Source of the DNA: Anthostomella pinea
Lineage: Eukaryota; Ascomycota; Sordariomycetes; Xylariales; Xylariaceae
Direction of reading: 5' to 3'
NCBI GenBank assembly: GCA_963556695.1
Contig: CAUWAG010000006.1
Location: 248,001 to 312,000, forward strand
Length of the DNA: 64,000 nt
Positions 6,439 through 56,814 of the stretch are shown here, one piece after another. The number at the start of each line of letters is the position of its first letter. Position 1 is the stretch's first letter. The position numbers and the translations under genes are program-made. The notes beneath the pieces are model-generated. The model was given only the letters and a program-made list of their open reading frames with translations, had not been told where the DNA came from and ran no database searches.

Positions 6439-8299
6439 ATGTCATTGCGTTATAGCAAATCAGACTTACAGCTTGCTGTCCAAGTTAAACAACGCGACCC
6501 TCATATTACCATTGACAAGCTTTCTAAGACTTTTCACGTCCCATATAATACCTTAAAGGCTAGAATCGCCGGCCGACCATCACGATGCAATAGCATGCCT
6601 AATACTTTGGAATTTACAAATTCTGAAGAGAATGCTATTTGTTCCTTTATAATCGACCTGGATGCGCAAGCATTTCCTCCCGGTACAGTTATGTTGAAGA
6701 TATAGCGAATCAATTATTGGCAGCGCGGGAGACTGGACGTGTCAGAAAGAACTGGACGCGGAACTTCATCCAACTTACACTAGGCCTTTGGACACGTTTT
6801 CATCAGAAGACAGATTACCAAAGGGTCTTAAATAAAGATCCAGATATGTATTGCACATAGTTCTGCCAAGTTGCGGCAGCAATCGCAAAACATGGCATCC
6901 AAGACGCGGATATTTATAACTTTGATGAGGCTAGGTTTATGATGGGCATTATTAGGTCCGGTATGGTCATTATAAGCGACAGAAGACATGACAGGCCTAG
7001 ACAAGCTCAGCAAGGTAACAGGGAATGGTCTACAGCAATTTCTGCTATAATACCAATGGTTGGGTGGTCCTGTCATTTATTATTATAGCGCAAAACCCAC
7101 CTCGCATCATGGTATTGCGATACGACATTACTACGCGATTGGAAGGTGGCCGTGTCCGACAACGGGTGGCCTATAAACGAGATTGGTTTGAAATGGATTC
7201 AGCATTTTGACAAGTATACCAGACCGTGAATGACTGCTGGTAAACAACTCCTCATCCCAAATAGTTACAAAAGCCACCATTCTCAAGTTTTTAAAGATTA
7301 TTGCCAGAACAATAGCATTATTTGTTGGAACAGGCTTGAACGATCAATCATAATACTCGAGTATGGGGTCAAGGTCATGATGTTGCTGATGGTTGGATTG
7401 AGAGGAATCTAGCTGGACTCGAAGATCTGGCCAAGTGCCCTCTCAATCCACTATCTTATCTTATCTAATCATACATGTGGGTCCTGGTATAGATGGTTTG
7501 CAGTCTGGAATCGCATGGATCCAACATTATTACCCTTTATATGCCTGCCTACTCGTCACACAGGCTCCAGCCTTTAGATATCAGTTGTTTTAGCCTGTTC
7601 AAACAAGCTGACAGTCGCATGATTAAGGATCTCATCTGGCGTCATATAGCCCACATTTTGAAGGAGGACTTCCTCACAACGTTTTGTGAAGCACACAATG
7701 CTGTAATGACACCAGGAAACATCCGAACAGGTTTCAGTGCCACTGGCCTTGTTCCTTTTGACCCAGAAAATGTCATTTTAAAGCTGGATGCTGTCACTAT
7801 CGTACAAACACCGTTGCCAGACCCCAATCTACCACCCACTACTTGGACTTTGAAGACACCTATTACCATTAACAAAGCGGTAAACCAATCGGTTTATATC
7901 CGGAATCAAGTCAGAAACCACCAGGGAAGCTCACCTACATCAATAGTTGATGCATTAAGCTCGTTTTCAAAGGCTACATACGGTCTTATGCATAAGGTCG
8001 CTTTGGTTGATTCCCGGGTCCGCGAGCTAGAGAATGCCAATCACCTACTAAGTAAACGCTGGAGGACAAAAAACAAATGTCTAGTGAAAGAAGGAATACT
8101 TTCTGTTGAAGATACAGTAGGTCTCCAGGCTGTAAAGGATGGTAGTGAGCTGGCAAGACAGGAAATGGGTGAAGGTAGTCTTCATCCAAGGAGGGCAGCA
8201 GCGCGTGAGCGACGTTGTGGCGTTTGCGGCAACACTGGCCATAATGCGCAAACTTGTATAATAGAGATGGAAACGTCTGAAGAAAAAGAATCTGATTGA
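6439..8299 (+). pseudogene. Pogo/Fot1-type DDE transposase, frameshifted
   Basis: The N-terminus (from ATG 6439) is a psq-type helix-turn-helix: QLAVQVKQRDPHITIDKLSKTF followed by VPYNTLKARIAGR. The frame then breaks near 6690, continues in another frame with ANQLLAAR and the KTDYQRVL block, and has further stops near 6860. The catalytic-core traces IYNFDEARFMMG, WSTAISAI and HSSHLLQPLD-like YSSHRLQPLD are visible. The last open part (7493-8299) ends in a zinc-knuckle, CGVCGNTGHNAQTC, common in this fungal lineage. Removing the 203-bp LTR and one TTATT restores NNSIITLYMPAYSSH across the insertion. With several frameshifts and stops the product cannot be functional. Confidence 0.8.
7324..7526. 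mobile_element. Solo LTR (203 bp) inserted in the transposase gene
   Basis: The insert begins TGTTGGA and ends TCCAACA, the TG...CA inverted ends typical of LTR retrotransposons. It is flanked by a perfect 5-bp direct repeat, TTATT, at 7319-7323 and 7527-7531. Excising it rejoins the transposase reading frame. No internal retrotransposon sequence, primer-binding site or polypurine tract accompanies it, so it is a solo LTR left by recombination between two LTRs. Confidence 0.85.
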
Positions 8300-12119: not shown

Positions 12120-12126
12120 AAAAAAG
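12120..12126 (-). terminator. RNA polymerase III terminator (T7 on minus strand)
   Basis: Seven consecutive A on the plus strand give T7 on the transcribed strand, ten nucleotides after the end of the tRNA. This is the normal position and form of a polymerase III stop. Confidence 0.75.
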
Positions 12127-12172
12127 GGTTTGAATTAGCATCTCTCAGTTTCGATCTGAGGACCTCCGGGTT

Positions 12173-12221
12173 GCATGTTTTGAAATCATGATTAACTCGT
12201 AGTTAAATCACAATTACGTTA
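12173..12221 (-). other. 49-nt canonical tRNA intron (position 37/38)
   Basis: It sits one nucleotide after the anticodon CAT, exactly where nuclear tRNA introns are cut by the tRNA splicing endonuclease. Removing it closes the seven-nucleotide anticodon loop. It is A/T-rich, like many fungal tRNA introns. Confidence 0.8.
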
Positions 12222-12232
12222 TATGAGCCCGG

Positions 12233-12291
12233 CTAGCGCATTGTTAGTTAATCCCGCTGCTCTAATAAGACAAGGAGCAATATATGCTTAC
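12233..12291 (-). other. 59-nt non-canonical insert in the initiator tRNA (position 26/27)
   Basis: The insert starts GTAAGC, has TTAACTAAC (CTAAC at 12247-12243) and ends GCTAG. These are the donor, branch-site and acceptor of a typical fungal spliceosomal intron, at a typical length, but inside a polymerase III gene. GCAT near its 5' end can pair with ATGC near its 3' end, so a tRNA-endonuclease-type structure is also conceivable. It contains GCAGCGG, which also occurs in the D arm of exon 1. Confidence 0.7.
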
Positions 12292-12466
12292 CGCGCTTCC
12301 GCTGCGCCAAGATGCTTGTGGTTGATGATGTAATTTTGGAGCGATATCCGTATCCATATAGGTTTGACCTACGGAGCGCCAGGCGGTTGTTTGGCTGGCA
12401 TAGGTTCCCCCATTCATTTGTCACGACCCCGTCTTGTGAGTCACAGCGCCGTTGCCTATGATAAGG

Positions 12467-12566
12467 TATGCCGAACTTCCGATATTCATGATATGCCGAA
12501 TTTCCGATATCTCTGACATCCCGAACTTCCAATATCTATGAAATGCCGAACTCCCGTCATCTATGA
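12467..12566. repeat. 25-bp tandem repeat, four copies
   Basis: Four head-to-tail units of exactly 25 bp (12467-12491, 12492-12516, 12517-12541, 12542-12566) share a core close to ATGCCGAACTTCCGATATCT. They differ at a few positions each. The array starts about 150 bp upstream of the initiator tRNA gene. Confidence 0.85.
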
Positions 12567-12754: not shown

Positions 12755-12966
12755 AATTACGGACTTACAGCCATGACCAACGTAAGCATCTGGTCATCAT
12801 GAGCACTACAGCTTCCCAACGATGAACAAACAGTTTCTCCTAAAGTTATACTAAAACAATGCTGTGTTTCGTCTTGTTTGTCACTCTCTCCCTCTCTCTT
12901 TCTATATCTCTCCAACCCTAGATTTCATCAACAATAGTACGACATCTTTTCATAGAGTTATCAAAC

Positions 12967-30273: not shown

Positions 30274-32276
30274 CTTGAATGAATGAAGTGCGAATCACGG
30301 ATCGCAGAAGGTCTTAATACCAGATTCGGAATGAAACGAAAGACTGAAGTGGAAAAATGAGTGAAAGAGGCAGGCCGAAGAAGACGATGATGACCCAGAG
30401 AAGAGAGAGGACGTGACATTGCGGCGGGAAGCTGCCTTTATGAACTTAGAGGCCATCGTCACGGTGCGTACTTGTGCTACCGGAAAGACTCTACCCAGCA
30501 TTCGACCCTCTCTGGTAACCTGGTTGACATATGTCGATGATAGATTGCGGCTCGTGGCCCTTCATCTGCAGGCTCGGGAGACAACCTTCACTCGGATTCG
30601 CGATTGGGTTCTGAGTTACATCGTGAGCACAACTGGTATAGTCGTTCCACCTGGCCATCGGCGGCTTGTGAAACAGAACACGGTGAAACACGTCTCCCAG
30701 GTCCACAACCACTCTATTCGAGCCTGACCCACCACGGCCCTGGCGCGTTGCACGGTTGCAGTACCGGGAAATCGGGTCCTTCGACACAGCCCTGCTTCGG
30801 TAAAGTCTCCTACTGGTGGAAACTTGGAGATGGCGCGGACGACCGAGAAAGTTCAGATGAACTCCAGGACCAGTGCATTTCCCCTGAGGCGATCCCATCA
30901 GATCTTCCGGCTGGAATTTCGCCTGTCGAAGGAACCATCGTGGGTCTGTTCAAGCAACATGCAACCAATGCGACGGAACAATTTACTGGAGTGCCAATAG
31001 CCATCAAGGAGTGTTGAGATCAGCAACCCTCGCCTATCCTCGACAGGCGCCTACGTACATTAGCCCACAGTCCCGGCGTCAACTGGTCAGGGGCCTGGCC
31101 TGTTTTCAGGTCTGCCGACGAACTCATTGCCTGGAATTGCCTGTGGCCCGTCGCGAAGGCGTGACTGACTGTGCGGTACTCCCAGGTCATCCGCCACATC
31201 ATGCGGCGTAGTTCGGGCGGCAGTCGAGCAAAGCTGCGTTCGCCAGGTTGATCAAGAGTCAACTGGCCCATCTAGACCATGACTTCACGGATGTGGGTAG
31301 ATTCACATAGATGCTCCCTACGGTATCTACGCTGGTTCGGCGTTTTCTGTCGTCCGGTGGATGAGACGAGAAACGAGCACCAAAAAGAGACGAGAGAAAG
31401 TGAAGGGCAAAAATTGTAAAACAAAACATACAACACCGAGGATTCGCTGGTTGTCACCGACCCAACTACTGATCCGGCGGTATCAGGCTTATTTAAGGCA
31501 GAGCGGACGGGATGCCAAGTCCTCCTAATCCTATGGTCGTATGTGATCTAGATTATCTTCAATGAGACACTATAAGGTGCTACTAGGGTGATCAGTTCAA
31601 CGAGCTCTTGGTGGTGATTAAGAGTTGTTGAATGGCGCACAAGCCACCGTGGCGTTCAGGGAGGTGGCAGTGCACCAACAAGGCCAATAGGGCATTTTTG
31701 GGCTACTTAGCCCACAGAAGGATTTTCGCAGAGATACAACAAGAATACGGATTACACCAGAATATACGTCTTCACCCATCTAAAAGCCCCCACGCTCTGT
31801 TTGACAAGAGTCCTTCTAGCTACCTGGTAGTCAGCCCCTACGGAAGGTTTCAAGGCAGTGATGAATCTCCCCAGTACTTGCGCTTGACTATGACGGCCAT
31901 CTTGGTTGATGCTCGTGATCAGCGATCGCACGCTGGAGACGAAGTAAGTTGTTTTCAGAGCCATAAGAAGTGATAGCGCGATCGTTCCAGTCGAGTGTCA
32001 AGTGGCCTTCCTCTTTTGATCGTGACTACCCTAAACCTTCTCAGATTGGACTGCCTGCCTACTGCGTAGGTAGGTACTCCACCACCAGCCTTTCCCCTCT
32101 TCATCGCTACTTCCGGTCTTATGGATCATGTTGCCGTGGTAGTCACGATGCACGCAACGATGAGGTAACTAGACAATTCAAGAGCTACATATCCTCATCA
32201 CTAACTAACTACCTACAGGTACTATATATACTCCATACCTGATGTACCGCCCAATCATTCCATATACAGTACTTCC
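30274..32276. other. Intergenic, no gene recognised
   Basis: About 2 kb between the AA9 5' end and the AA13 3' end. Frames at 30604-31017 (plus) and 30491-30898 (minus) overlap each other and neither shows a domain, signal peptide or repeat. Confidence 0.4.
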
Positions 32277-46950: not shown

Positions 46951-48885
46951 ACATCTCACCCCCCCTGCGGACCACCCCCCCACGGACCACTCCACACCAC
47001 ACCACTCTCATTCAGATGAAGCCATCTACAACCACCACAGTTGCTAAATACACTAAGGTCGTGGTGTTCTAACCATAATACAGCTCCCAGAATCCGATTC
47101 CGACCCTAAATCTTCACCAGGGACCTCTTGTGGGACCTCTTTGCCTGCAGCGGAGTCCCTATAGACCCTTCTGTTCCTCAGCTCCATTTTGGCCTCCCTT
47201 ATGTTAGTCATTGTGACGAATCGTTCCCCTGGTGTTGGTTTGACTGCTTTTCGAGTGGTATTAGCCTTTTTAGCCACTTGAGCCTCAAGCAGCTCACATT
47301 TGGCCCGTAGATTTGTAATGGTAGCAGCCTGAATATCCATGGCCTTGCCAGCCTTCCGCACCAACAAGCGCTCAGAGGGCCCCCCAAAAGAAGGGTCCTT
47401 TCTTTCGAGTTTTTGAGCACTCTCCCGCAAAGCCCGGCTTCCAGAGGGTGTTATGACAATGGTTTTAGCTACCATCTCGAGAAAATCTGGTGTTGTGGCT
47501 CGCTCGGAAGCCTTAGGGTCCCTCTGGCGTGCCCTGGCCACCCCCTTGTCCTTTAGAATCACATATTTCGATTTCAACGCCTCCGCTCTATTGCGAGGAA
47601 CAATCCCAGTCTTTTTCCAGGCAATTCTGATGTTGAGGAGCGTCATTGTGTCCTTCCGGGCCTGCTCGTAGCACTCCAAAACCTCCTCCTTAGATGGCCT
47701 GAGTCCCAGACGGCCGCTGGGCGTCTCCTGGAGTAAGGTCTTCAACCTCTTCTTCACCAAATTGAAGACTCCCACATCTAACACCTGGACTACATGGGAG
47801 CAGTGAGGTTCATAAAAGATCAACCATACTTTGTTTCTCAAGCAGGTGGCTAGGAACTCGTCATTCGTGTGGGAGTCGTGGCCATCACACACCAAAACCA
47901 CCCATGTGTTGCCGTGGACCTCCCGAATATGAGGAATAAAGATACGTTGAAGCCATTCTAACGCAATGGGATTCGAGGTCCATCCATTAGGCGACGTAAT
48001 AAACCTCCAGTCAGTGAATTTGCCCTCGTTTTGGTTGCTAAATCACTGGGCTTGTACGTTAACCCCCTTGAGAATCACCAGCGGCGGCAAGGTCTCACCA
48101 GATCCGCTCACACACTCTAGGGCAGTTATCCATTCACCCTTCTCGACCCCTTTCTTCATAGCCACGTTGCCGGAGGCCTCGGAGACCACCCAATGGGAGT
48201 CCCCAACCCCCTGGGCGATTCCCATTTTGTCGACGTTGTACCAGCGTGCTGGCATGAGGTTAACCACGTCAGGGGCGTCACACCGATTGAAAAAAATGTT
48301 AATATTTGCCGCTGTAGCACCATTCACTCGGTTATAGTCGATAATACGAGACTTCATTATCTTGACTTCCGGGTTTCGAGACAGGAACTTGGATGCCCAA
48401 TTTTTCCCTAATTCTCGAGCATCACCGGTGGCATGGAGCATCCGCTGGGCCATGAGACGGAACTTAGAGACCGCCGGAGAATACCCTAGCCGTGCTTGCC
48501 CCAGGGCCTAGCTTGCCAGCTTATGTTCGAGATACGGTGAGAGAGCCTGTTGGAGAGCGCTGGTCTCATTCCGCGTTGGGGTGCCAGAGATTTGTCGGTT
48601 GATGTACAAGCGACTGATTTGCCATTCGAGGGCTGACGAGCGGACTGGAGCTCCGCGTTGGATGGCCAAAATGGCGGCTTCGGCTTTTATTTGACGGTCG
48701 TAAAATGACATCATGAGATTCAGCAGTAGATAAGGATTCAAATAGAGTGCTTTGTGAAAAAAAGATGCAAAAGTGATGGTGTAGATGGTGGATCACCATA
48801 ATCCTGGTGATTGGTGAATTACGCGTTTGTGGGTCAGAACGCGCTGGTCCGCGAGGGGGTGGTCCGCAGGGGGGTGGGAGATGTT
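46951..48885 (-). mobile_element. Pogo-family DNA transposon, 1,935 bp, inside the SINE
   Basis: Inverted terminal repeats of about 40 bp begin ACATCTC and share CCCCCCTGCGGACCACCCCC between the left end (46951 on) and the reverse complement of the right end (to 48885). TA dinucleotides at 46949-46950 and 48886-48887 are the target duplication. The element encodes one transposase on the minus strand with two nonsense codons. Being the innermost insertion it is the youngest of the three nested elements. Confidence 0.87.
47053..48714 (-). pseudogene. Pogo-type transposase, nearly intact, two in-frame stops
   Basis: One frame runs from MMSFYDRQ (48714) to TAA/TAG at 47053, about 554 codons, with only two interruptions: TAG at 48508-48510 (before ALGQARLGYSP) and TGA at 48043-48045 (before FSNQNEGKF, where Trp is expected). 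It contains a helix-turn-helix N-terminus (SALEWQISRLYINRQISGTP), then ARELGKNWASKFLSRNPEVK. The DDE core follows: YNVDKMGIAQG with the first Asp, VVLVCDGHDSHTNDEF with the second, and HVVQVLDVGVFN with the third. A long basic C-terminus ends SESDSGSCIMVRTPRP. Both stops fit single C-to-T/G-to-A transitions. VDKMG has Lys where relatives usually have Glu. Confidence 0.83.
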
Positions 48886-55468: not shown

Positions 55469-56814
55469 CACTGACCCTCCAAAAGTCTCCGAGCATCCAC
55501 CACGCTAGTTTCAAAACGCGTCTACGCGCTCGCGACCCCCTTCCTTCTTCACCTTTTATAAACTCAACACCAAAACGATGGATTTACAAAAGGCTGGTAC
55601 AATCCTGACCGCAAATTGCGGGCCAAACCAGGAATTTACTTTCGAAGCTCGTGTAGCTATTGTGGCTGCCAGGGCGGCAGGCGCAAGGCGCGACGATGTC
55701 GCAAACGCGTTCCATCTGGATCGGCCTCAAACCGTAACCGACATTATCAACACTGTTAGAGAGCATAACACCACGGTCTCTCAACCTTGAGAGGGAGCCA
55801 CACGGACTCTAAACAAGCGTGAAGAAGCTCAACTAGTTAAAATAACACAATAATACCCCAGGGCCGCCTATAGAGAGCTCAAGAAAGAGAGCAGGGTCCT
55901 CAGCTCCCATACCATTATTAAGTGCGTTCCTTGCGCTCACGGGCTTTGTAAATAGAAAGCGGCAAAGCGGATCAAGCTTACAGAAGATGACGCACGAGAG
56001 AGGCTTGCTTTTTGCAATAAATACGATTCCCTGGAGGCTCTGGAGGAGCTGATGTGAACGCTCTTCTCAGACGAAGTCACGGTCCAGAATTCATCTGATA
56101 ATCCGGGCGATTGGTTCATGCACCTCTCTTCTGAACGTTACAGGCAGGATCTCGTGAACCCTCGGAGCCATGGGAGACCCCGTATCTCCATTATGTGTTG
56201 GGCCTTGATCTGGTTACACGGCAGAGAAGGTGGCCTAGGCAAAATCATCTTTTGCGAGCCCGATAAGGATGCTCCTCGCGGAGGAGTATCTTCAGCTTCA
56301 TATCAAGACGTCCTTGAGGAAGGGCTCCTTCCGTTCTATGAGGCTGGGGATCCTTTTATGCAAGATAACGCTCGCATCCATCGATTTGGAGGCACTCCAG
56401 AGTGGCTAGAGGAGCACGGCATCTGGACAATCGACTGGCTTGCTCACAGCCCTGATTTGAACCCGATCAAGCACGTTTGGGCACTTCTAAAGAAGCAGAT
56501 ACGGAGAATCGAGCCTGGTTTTGCTGATTTGAAGGCTAATATTGCCCACGAGGCATATACCAGACAGTTAATCGAAAGGGCGTGGTCAGATATCGATCCT
56601 GAGGATGTACGCGTTCTCGTCGAATCTCTCGGCAACCGAATCGCCGCAGTGAAAAGGGCAGGTGGTTGGTACACACACTATTGAACTTATACAATGCAGT
56701 TTTTTTCATATTATTACAGTGAGAGATGGGTGCATGATGAATGCTGAAAGTTGGAGGGTGTAGGCGTGTAGGGCTGCTCGAAAAGTGGGCTCGGAGACTT
56801 CTGGTCGGGGAGTG
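55469..56814 (+). mobile_element. Tc1/mariner-type transposon, 1,346 bp, inactive
   Basis: Imperfect inverted ends of about 26 bp start CACT and share AAGTCTCCGAGC between 55469 onward and the reverse complement of the sequence ending at 56814. TA at 55467-55468 and 56815-56816 flank it. The size and the AAGTCTCCG core agree with the element at 22334-23682; the two lie in opposite orientation. Confidence 0.82.
55578..56684 (+). pseudogene. Tc1/mariner transposase with four in-frame stops
   Basis: A single frame runs from MDLQKAGTILTANCG (55578) to TGA after GGWYTHY (56682-56684), interrupted by TGA at 55788-55790 and by TAA, TAG and TGA further on to about 56057. All four can arise from Arg/Gln codons by C-to-T change. 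Recognisable parts are EARVAIVAARAAGARRDDVANAF (helix-turn-helix), LFSDEVTVQNSSDNPGDW (first Asp), DAPRGGVSSASYQDVLEEG, MQDNARIHR (second Asp) and SPDLNPIKHVW. The last motif has Lys where the catalytic Glu belongs, a further G-to-A-type change. Confidence 0.82.

Follow-up and report, generated by a model that had tools for sequence, protein, structure and literature searches.

Initiator tRNA-Met genes of Anthostomella pinea that very likely carry a spliceosomal-type intron, in one gene alongside a 37/38 intron

The initiator tRNA-Met locus

The gene considered here lies in a 64,000-nt stretch of the Anthostomella pinea genome, which was analysed as a whole and is referred to as the window (C4:248001-312000 of an assembly of 53.7 Mb in 16 contigs). 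The minus strand at window positions 12136-12316 encodes a eukaryotic initiator tRNA-Met split into three exons; the locus takes up 181 nt including A73, and the exons sum to 72 nt (25 + 11 + 36). A second copy of the gene is found on contig C16. The features of the window gene, in the direction of transcription, are as follows.

12354..12360, minus strand: TATATGG, a possible TFIIIB site 44 nt 5' of nt 1 (43 nt in the C16 copy)
12292..12316, minus strand: tRNA-iMet exon 1, nt 1-26, with the acceptor 5' strand, A box and D arm; identical in the C16 copy
12309-12299, minus strand: A box, inside exon 1
12233..12291, minus strand: 59-nt insert at site 26/27, a candidate spliceosomal-type intron (GTAAGC...CTAAC...TAG, 19.05 bits)
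12286..12291, minus strand: predicted 5' splice site GTAAGC, with GTAAGCAT in common with the C16 copy
12243..12247, minus strand: predicted branch-point sequence CTAAC, 7 nt from the TAG acceptor
12233..12235, minus strand: predicted 3' splice site TAG, the end of the 26/27 insert
12222..12232, minus strand: tRNA-iMet exon 2, nt 27-37, CCGGGCTCATA, containing the CAT anticodon
12172..12221, minus strand: 50-nt intron at site 37/38, of the tRNA-endonuclease type by its position; absent from the C16 copy
12136..12171, minus strand: tRNA-iMet exon 3, nt 38-73, with the T loop ATCGAAA and the B box
12156-12148, minus strand: B box, inside exon 3
12120..12125, minus strand: Pol III terminator, a T6 run downstream of the gene

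These coordinates bear out the first-pass annotation of an initiator tRNA-Met in three minus-strand segments that add to 72 nt, with the T loop ATCGAAA and a 59-nt insert at 26/27 (12291-12233), and correct it in its details. The end of the locus moves from 12137 to 12136, since the discriminator base A73 had been dropped; the second insert is indeed at 37/38, at a length of 50 nt (12221-12172) rather than 49 nt; and the terminator is T6 (12125-12120), not T7.

Eukaryotic initiator tRNA-Met is marked by A1:U72, GGG:CCC at 29-31:39-41, A54, A60 and the CAT anticodon, all of which are present in the joined 72-mer. Against reference sequences, the 72-mer is identical at 60/72 positions to yeast iMet and at 47/75 to yeast eMet; for the human pair the values are 54/72 and 53/74, so that whole-length identity does not discriminate there. 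Over nt 26-48 it matches iMet at 20/23 positions and eMet at 17/23, for human and yeast alike. All the features expected of a Pol III gene are found, namely the A box, the B box, a T-run 3' of the gene (T6 in the window copy, T5 in the C16 copy) and the absence of an internal TTTT, the longest inner T-run being 3 in the window copy and 2 in the C16 copy. The lack of TTTT within Pol III introns is not counted as evidence in its own right, since 14 of 21 mRNA introns of this genome lack TTTT too. Neither ARAGORN nor Rfam at its gathering threshold reports the window initiator tRNA, which is expected because it bears two long inserts.

The insert at 37/38 occupies the canonical site and offers a possible pair between C32 and the G at intron position -3; scored as a spliceosomal intron, with the PWM described below, it reaches -12.3 bits. 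Judged by its site and this pairing, it is an ordinary tRNA intron. It resembles canonical eukaryotic 37/38 introns, and in this genome elongator tRNA-Met and further tRNAs also have introns in the anticodon loop: among the best 10 of 15 Rfam-matched loci, seven tRNAs have an anticodon-loop insert and three have none. The insert at 26/27 does not fit this category.

A second canonical gene on contig C16

The second initiator gene, at C16:1444501-1444627, has a 55-nt insert at the same 26/27 site and no insert at 37/38. Its exons are identical to those of the window gene at all 72 positions. Its insert, GTAAGC...CTAAC...AAG, starts with GTAAGCAT as the window insert does, and in both copies 7 nt separate the branch sequence from the acceptor. 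Outside these elements the two loci share little: the 500-bp flanks are no more alike than shuffled sequences (125/200 and 44/200 shuffles as good), and neither are the intron cores between GTAAGCAT and CTAAC (991/5000 as good). The suggestion of the first-pass annotation that the window gene might be a recently interrupted copy is unsupported, because the C16 gene is interrupted at the same site by an insert with a diverged core and preserved splice signals; its other suggestion, of a rare second intron that entails unusual processing of an essential tRNA, stands. With exons and splice signals conserved amid diverged surroundings, the 26/27 introns look, from these two copies, as though they were kept by selection. 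It is also conceivable that the inserts at this one site were gained independently in the two genes.

One feature of the C16 copy deserves attention. A competing CAG lies 3 nt before the required AAG, and its use would add 3 bases to the exon. Tandem acceptors often favour CAG. The branch gap to this CAG would be 4 nt, below the 6-nt minimum among the 21 mRNA introns of the reference set.

Splice signals of the 26/27 insert

The reference for scoring was a PWM of 21 mRNA introns of 50-126 nt, obtained by aligning one beta-tubulin and one catalase to loci of these families in this genome with a spliced aligner that allows GT and AG only. It comprises 23 tubulin introns, from which 4 were removed by eye as alignment artefacts, with 2 catalase introns added; the removal of 4/23 by eye makes the PWM lean toward consensus introns. 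The window insert scores 19.05 bits and the C16 insert 17.7 bits, within the leave-one-out range of the mRNA introns (4.0-22.3). For neither insert did any of 100,000 mononucleotide shuffles score as high. The borders can be shifted by one base because a G is repeated, and with both registers allowed, 0/20,000 shuffles were as good as the 26/27 insert. The window initiator gene is therefore not a product of chance, as the spliced 72-mer matches the second gene exactly and the insert beats all shuffles.

The individual signals are equally of the kind that this genome uses in mRNA introns. The 5' site alone contributes 7.0 bits; exact GTAAGC is absent from the 21 mRNA introns, among which GTAAGT, GTAAGA and GTAAGG are present. 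In both copies an AG acceptor directly abuts the exon (TAG in the window, AAG on C16), and a YTRAY-type branch sequence, CTAAC, lies at the usual acceptor distance of the genome. Among the 21 mRNA introns, 2 are without any branch motif, 1 has only a distant one, and the shortest gap is 6 nt. Two introns of the catalase gene in the window, of 50 nt and 54 nt, have CTAAC at the same spacing as the 26/27 insert, and one of them ends in AAG. A comparable geometry is described for the short U2 introns of Hypoxylon, with a YTRAY-type branch about 7 nt from the acceptor: in PMC9024468, the internal introns of stwintrons have a gap of 7 nt in 49 of 81 unique cases, 6 nt in 11 and 8 nt in 5. Those introns differ in that they lie in protein genes and hence in Pol II transcripts. 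The possibility that the insert is a repeated introner-like element was rejected, as a 74-base BLAST query had itself as its sole match in this genome.

Overall, the insert at 26/27 is most likely a U2-type spliceosomal intron, a point that the first-pass annotation had missed; the unusual processing would most likely be the work of the spliceosome, because the arrangement GT...CTAAC...AG is that of the mRNA introns of this genome.

Candidate introns in a U6 gene, and other Pol III genes

A search of the genome for U6 snRNA returned four loci (L070, L071, L072 and L073). One of these, L072 (C16:2508026-2508168 and downstream), is a U6 snRNA gene with three GT-AG inserts of 49, 55 and 53 nt, each starting with GT and carrying a branch-like motif 6-8 nt before NAG, with scores of 14.1, 20.1 and 19.05 bits. 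One insert sits inside the ACAGAGA region, and one of the introns begins with GTAAGC. With the inserts removed, L072 is identical to human U6 in 85/115 alignment columns; the other three loci, compared over their first 110 bases, reach 72/113, 69/117 and 64/133. This comparison leans toward L072 because its borders were picked to fit the known U6; one extra T is present in its stem-loop region relative to the human sequence. By Rfam score the order is different, intronless L070 reaching 65.5 bits and L072 39.9 bits, under the family cut-off, as inserts depress such scores. L070, L071 and L073 are intronless and more diverged U6-like loci, and L070, by eye, adjoins a tandem repeat. As the best-conserved U6 locus has three such introns, the spliceosome may process Pol III transcripts in this fungus.

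Precedent exists in Schizosaccharomyces pombe, whose Pol III-transcribed U6 snRNA gene has an mRNA-type spliceosomal intron (Tani and Ohshima, 1989, 1991, cited by PMC8917221). The two cases are alike in having a short spliceosomal intron within an essential Pol III RNA; they differ in that the host RNA here is a tRNA, that the window copy adds an endonuclease-type intron, and that splicing is here predicted from sequence. Among the matches listed in a search of titles and opening abstracts of the open-access literature, no spliceosomal intron in a tRNA was found.

The SRP RNA gives a full-length match (297 nt for 293 model positions) in which no intron is seen, and a lone 5S rRNA gene in the window (31425-31544; 67.8 bits) is likewise matched over its full length, with no long insert. 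A gapped pattern that places GTAAG immediately behind the D arm in other tRNAs matched 47 places, against 96 in a backward control, and 0/47 had a 4-bp D stem, a negative that weighs little because the pattern misses 7-nt D loops, the initiator included, and GTGAG donors. As the Rfam survey of all tRNAs scored 63 of 2100 candidates, further tRNA genes with spliceosomal introns are possible. Searches for the junction of exon 1 with GTRWG gave 0 matches each in a viral and a genome contig collection, both without fungal genomes, where 0 were expected.

Removal by the tRNA splicing endonuclease

Introns outside 37/38, sometimes beside a 37/38 intron and in essential tRNAs, are described for Cyanidioschyzon merolae and for cryptomonad nucleomorphs (PMC4090602 and PMC3978253). 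PMC4090602 credits their removal to splicing endonucleases of broader recognition and describes how very short ones are excised as not understood. It could be argued that the insert at 26/27 belongs with these non-canonical tRNA introns, and the window copy lends this some appeal: AGCG of exon 1 and CGCT of the intron form 4/4 pairs of a central helix exactly at the place of a bulge-helix-bulge. However, the outer helix of the window copy has 1/4 pairs in register, and in the C16 copy the central helix reaches 0-1/4 in the three registers tried and the outer helix 1/4 in register. One base aside, the outer helix has 3/4 pairs in both copies, but the central helix falls to 2/4 in the window copy and 1/4 in the C16 copy. 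What the copies have conserved is GTAAGC, CTAAC, their spacing and AG, that is, the signals of a spliceosome substrate, and there is no bulge-helix-bulge common to both. Since the central helix occurs in one of two copies, it would be an unlikely route for splicing both, and removal of the 26/27 insert by the tRNA endonuclease appears improbable.

Variant genes without the 26/27 insert

Intact, uninterrupted initiator copies had been named in the first-pass annotation as part of what would count against its reading. No canonical one was found within the mismatch limits of the genome searches, and three variant genes without the insert exist. A pattern for the D-arm half (up to 2 mismatches) matched 13 places, of which two are the initiator genes of the window and C16, and one for the T-arm half (up to 1 mismatch) matched 9, including the same two. 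For an unbroken 26/27 junction, with up to 3 mismatches allowed, there were 7 matches, none a canonical initiator and one a variant on C9; the uninterrupted anticodon arm (up to 2 mismatches) was matched in the C16 copy and, at 2 mismatches, in one other place. An initiator-type T arm with a GCTA end has 5 exact matches, in both canonical genes and in three variants, with 9 places at one mismatch and 178 in total at up to 2, where a backward control gave 135. A gapped pattern combining a CAT anticodon loop with a standard T loop matched 252 places and was not used as evidence.

The three variant CAT tRNA genes (L040, L042 and L043; C2:6291400, C7:125131 and C9:3517796) have A1:U72, A54 and A60, 8-nt inserts at 37/38 and no insert at 26/27, and the C9 variant differs from those on C2 and C7 by compensated stem changes. 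It is possible to suppose that both interrupted genes are dead or unspliced and that these variants supply the initiator. A1:U72, A54, A60 and GGAA in the D loop, all borne by the variants, are initiator-like marks. Over their whole length the variants are identical at 53/73 and 56/73 positions to the canonical initiator and at 47/79 and 45/77 to the elongator; they are also nearer to yeast iMet (57/75 and 59/76) than to yeast eMet (48/75 and 49/75), and the human sequences give no clear answer (iMet 53/75 and 48/73; eMet 50/74 and 54/76). The reading of the variants as elongators was abandoned once standard elongator tRNA-Met genes (L092 and L093) were seen to be present; with these two, the variants are not required as elongators. 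Against a supply from the variants alone, their anticodon stem has the elongator-like AGG:CCT at 29-31:39-41 in place of the canonical GGG:CCC, and their nt 26-48 match the human and yeast elongators at 21/23 positions and the initiators at 16/23. Moreover, the interrupted genes have kept identical exons, A box, B box, terminators and splice signals despite the lost similarity of flanks and cores, which is hard to reconcile with dead genes, and this explanation is accordingly considered unlikely. Yet the variants are closer over their whole length to yeast iMet and lack the 26/27 insert, so that the interrupted genes may not be the sole source of initiator tRNA, should the variants be able to initiate.

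Lastly, the insert at 26/27 might be a structural element or a product of chance that is never removed and resembles an intron by coincidence. This reading gains a little from there being two copies to compare, but is scarcely credible given that no shuffle equals the score of either copy and that two genes bear these signals at one site although their intron cores have diverged.

Proposed processing and its implications

It is very likely that the canonical initiator tRNA genes with a spliceosomal intron, one of them needing two splicing systems, are a real and unusual phenomenon. The favoured reading, to which we assign a probability of roughly 0.78, is that the initiator tRNA-Met gene in the window is functional and that its primary transcript would contain two kinds of intron, a 59-nt U2-type intron at 26/27 and a 50-nt intron of the tRNA-endonuclease/ligase type at 37/38. 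As the intact A and B boxes and the T-run suggest, Pol III would transcribe the locus through to the T-run. The spliceosome, to judge by GTAAGC, CTAAC, their spacing and AG, would excise the 26/27 intron in the nucleus and thereby rejoin the D-arm/anticodon-arm junction. The tRNA endonuclease and ligase would then excise the 37/38 intron, as its position and the C32:G-3 pair indicate, the order of the two events being a guess. The C16 gene would require the spliceosomal step alone.

An essential nuclear tRNA would in this case probably depend on the spliceosome of mRNA, through a U2 intron at 26/27 of the canonical initiator genes, one gene needing both the spliceosome and the tRNA endonuclease. 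The introns of tRNA and mRNA are taught as separate worlds, served by separate machines, a divide that a spliceosomal intron in a tRNA would breach. If true, a tRNA transcribed by Pol III could be a substrate of the spliceosome, and spliceosome activity would bear on how much initiator tRNA is available, a new coupling of splicing capacity with the initiation of translation. Further, automatic tRNA finders can overlook the initiator tRNA of a genome, as ARAGORN and the Rfam gathering threshold did here.

Genomic setting

The gamma-tubulin exons of this genome are 95% identical to those of Truncatella angustata and 94% to those of Neoarthrinium moseri, with many other Sordariomycetes at 90-93%. 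The fungus is accordingly taken to stand close to the first two species, both of them members of the Amphisphaeriales within the Sordariomycetes; T. angustata belongs to the Xylariomycetidae. The Xylariomycetidae also include Hypoxylon. The catalase gene that adjoins the tRNA, from window position 12922 onward, is 85% identical to Neophaeococcomyces mojaviensis, above the named Sordariomycetes among the matches listed. Horizontal transfer of this gene is possible, and as its nearest named match is N. mojaviensis, single genes can mislead on placement.

Four copies of a 25-bp tandem repeat, at window positions 12468-12566, precede the tRNA gene by about 150 bp. Open reading frames at 7493-8299, 47053-48042 and 56058-56684 of the window may encode DDE transposases, which they resemble by eye. 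Clusters of tRNA matches on C2, C9, C13, C15 and C16 look like nuclear copies of mitochondrial DNA; their spacing and scores equal those found on the 32.6-kb contig C1.
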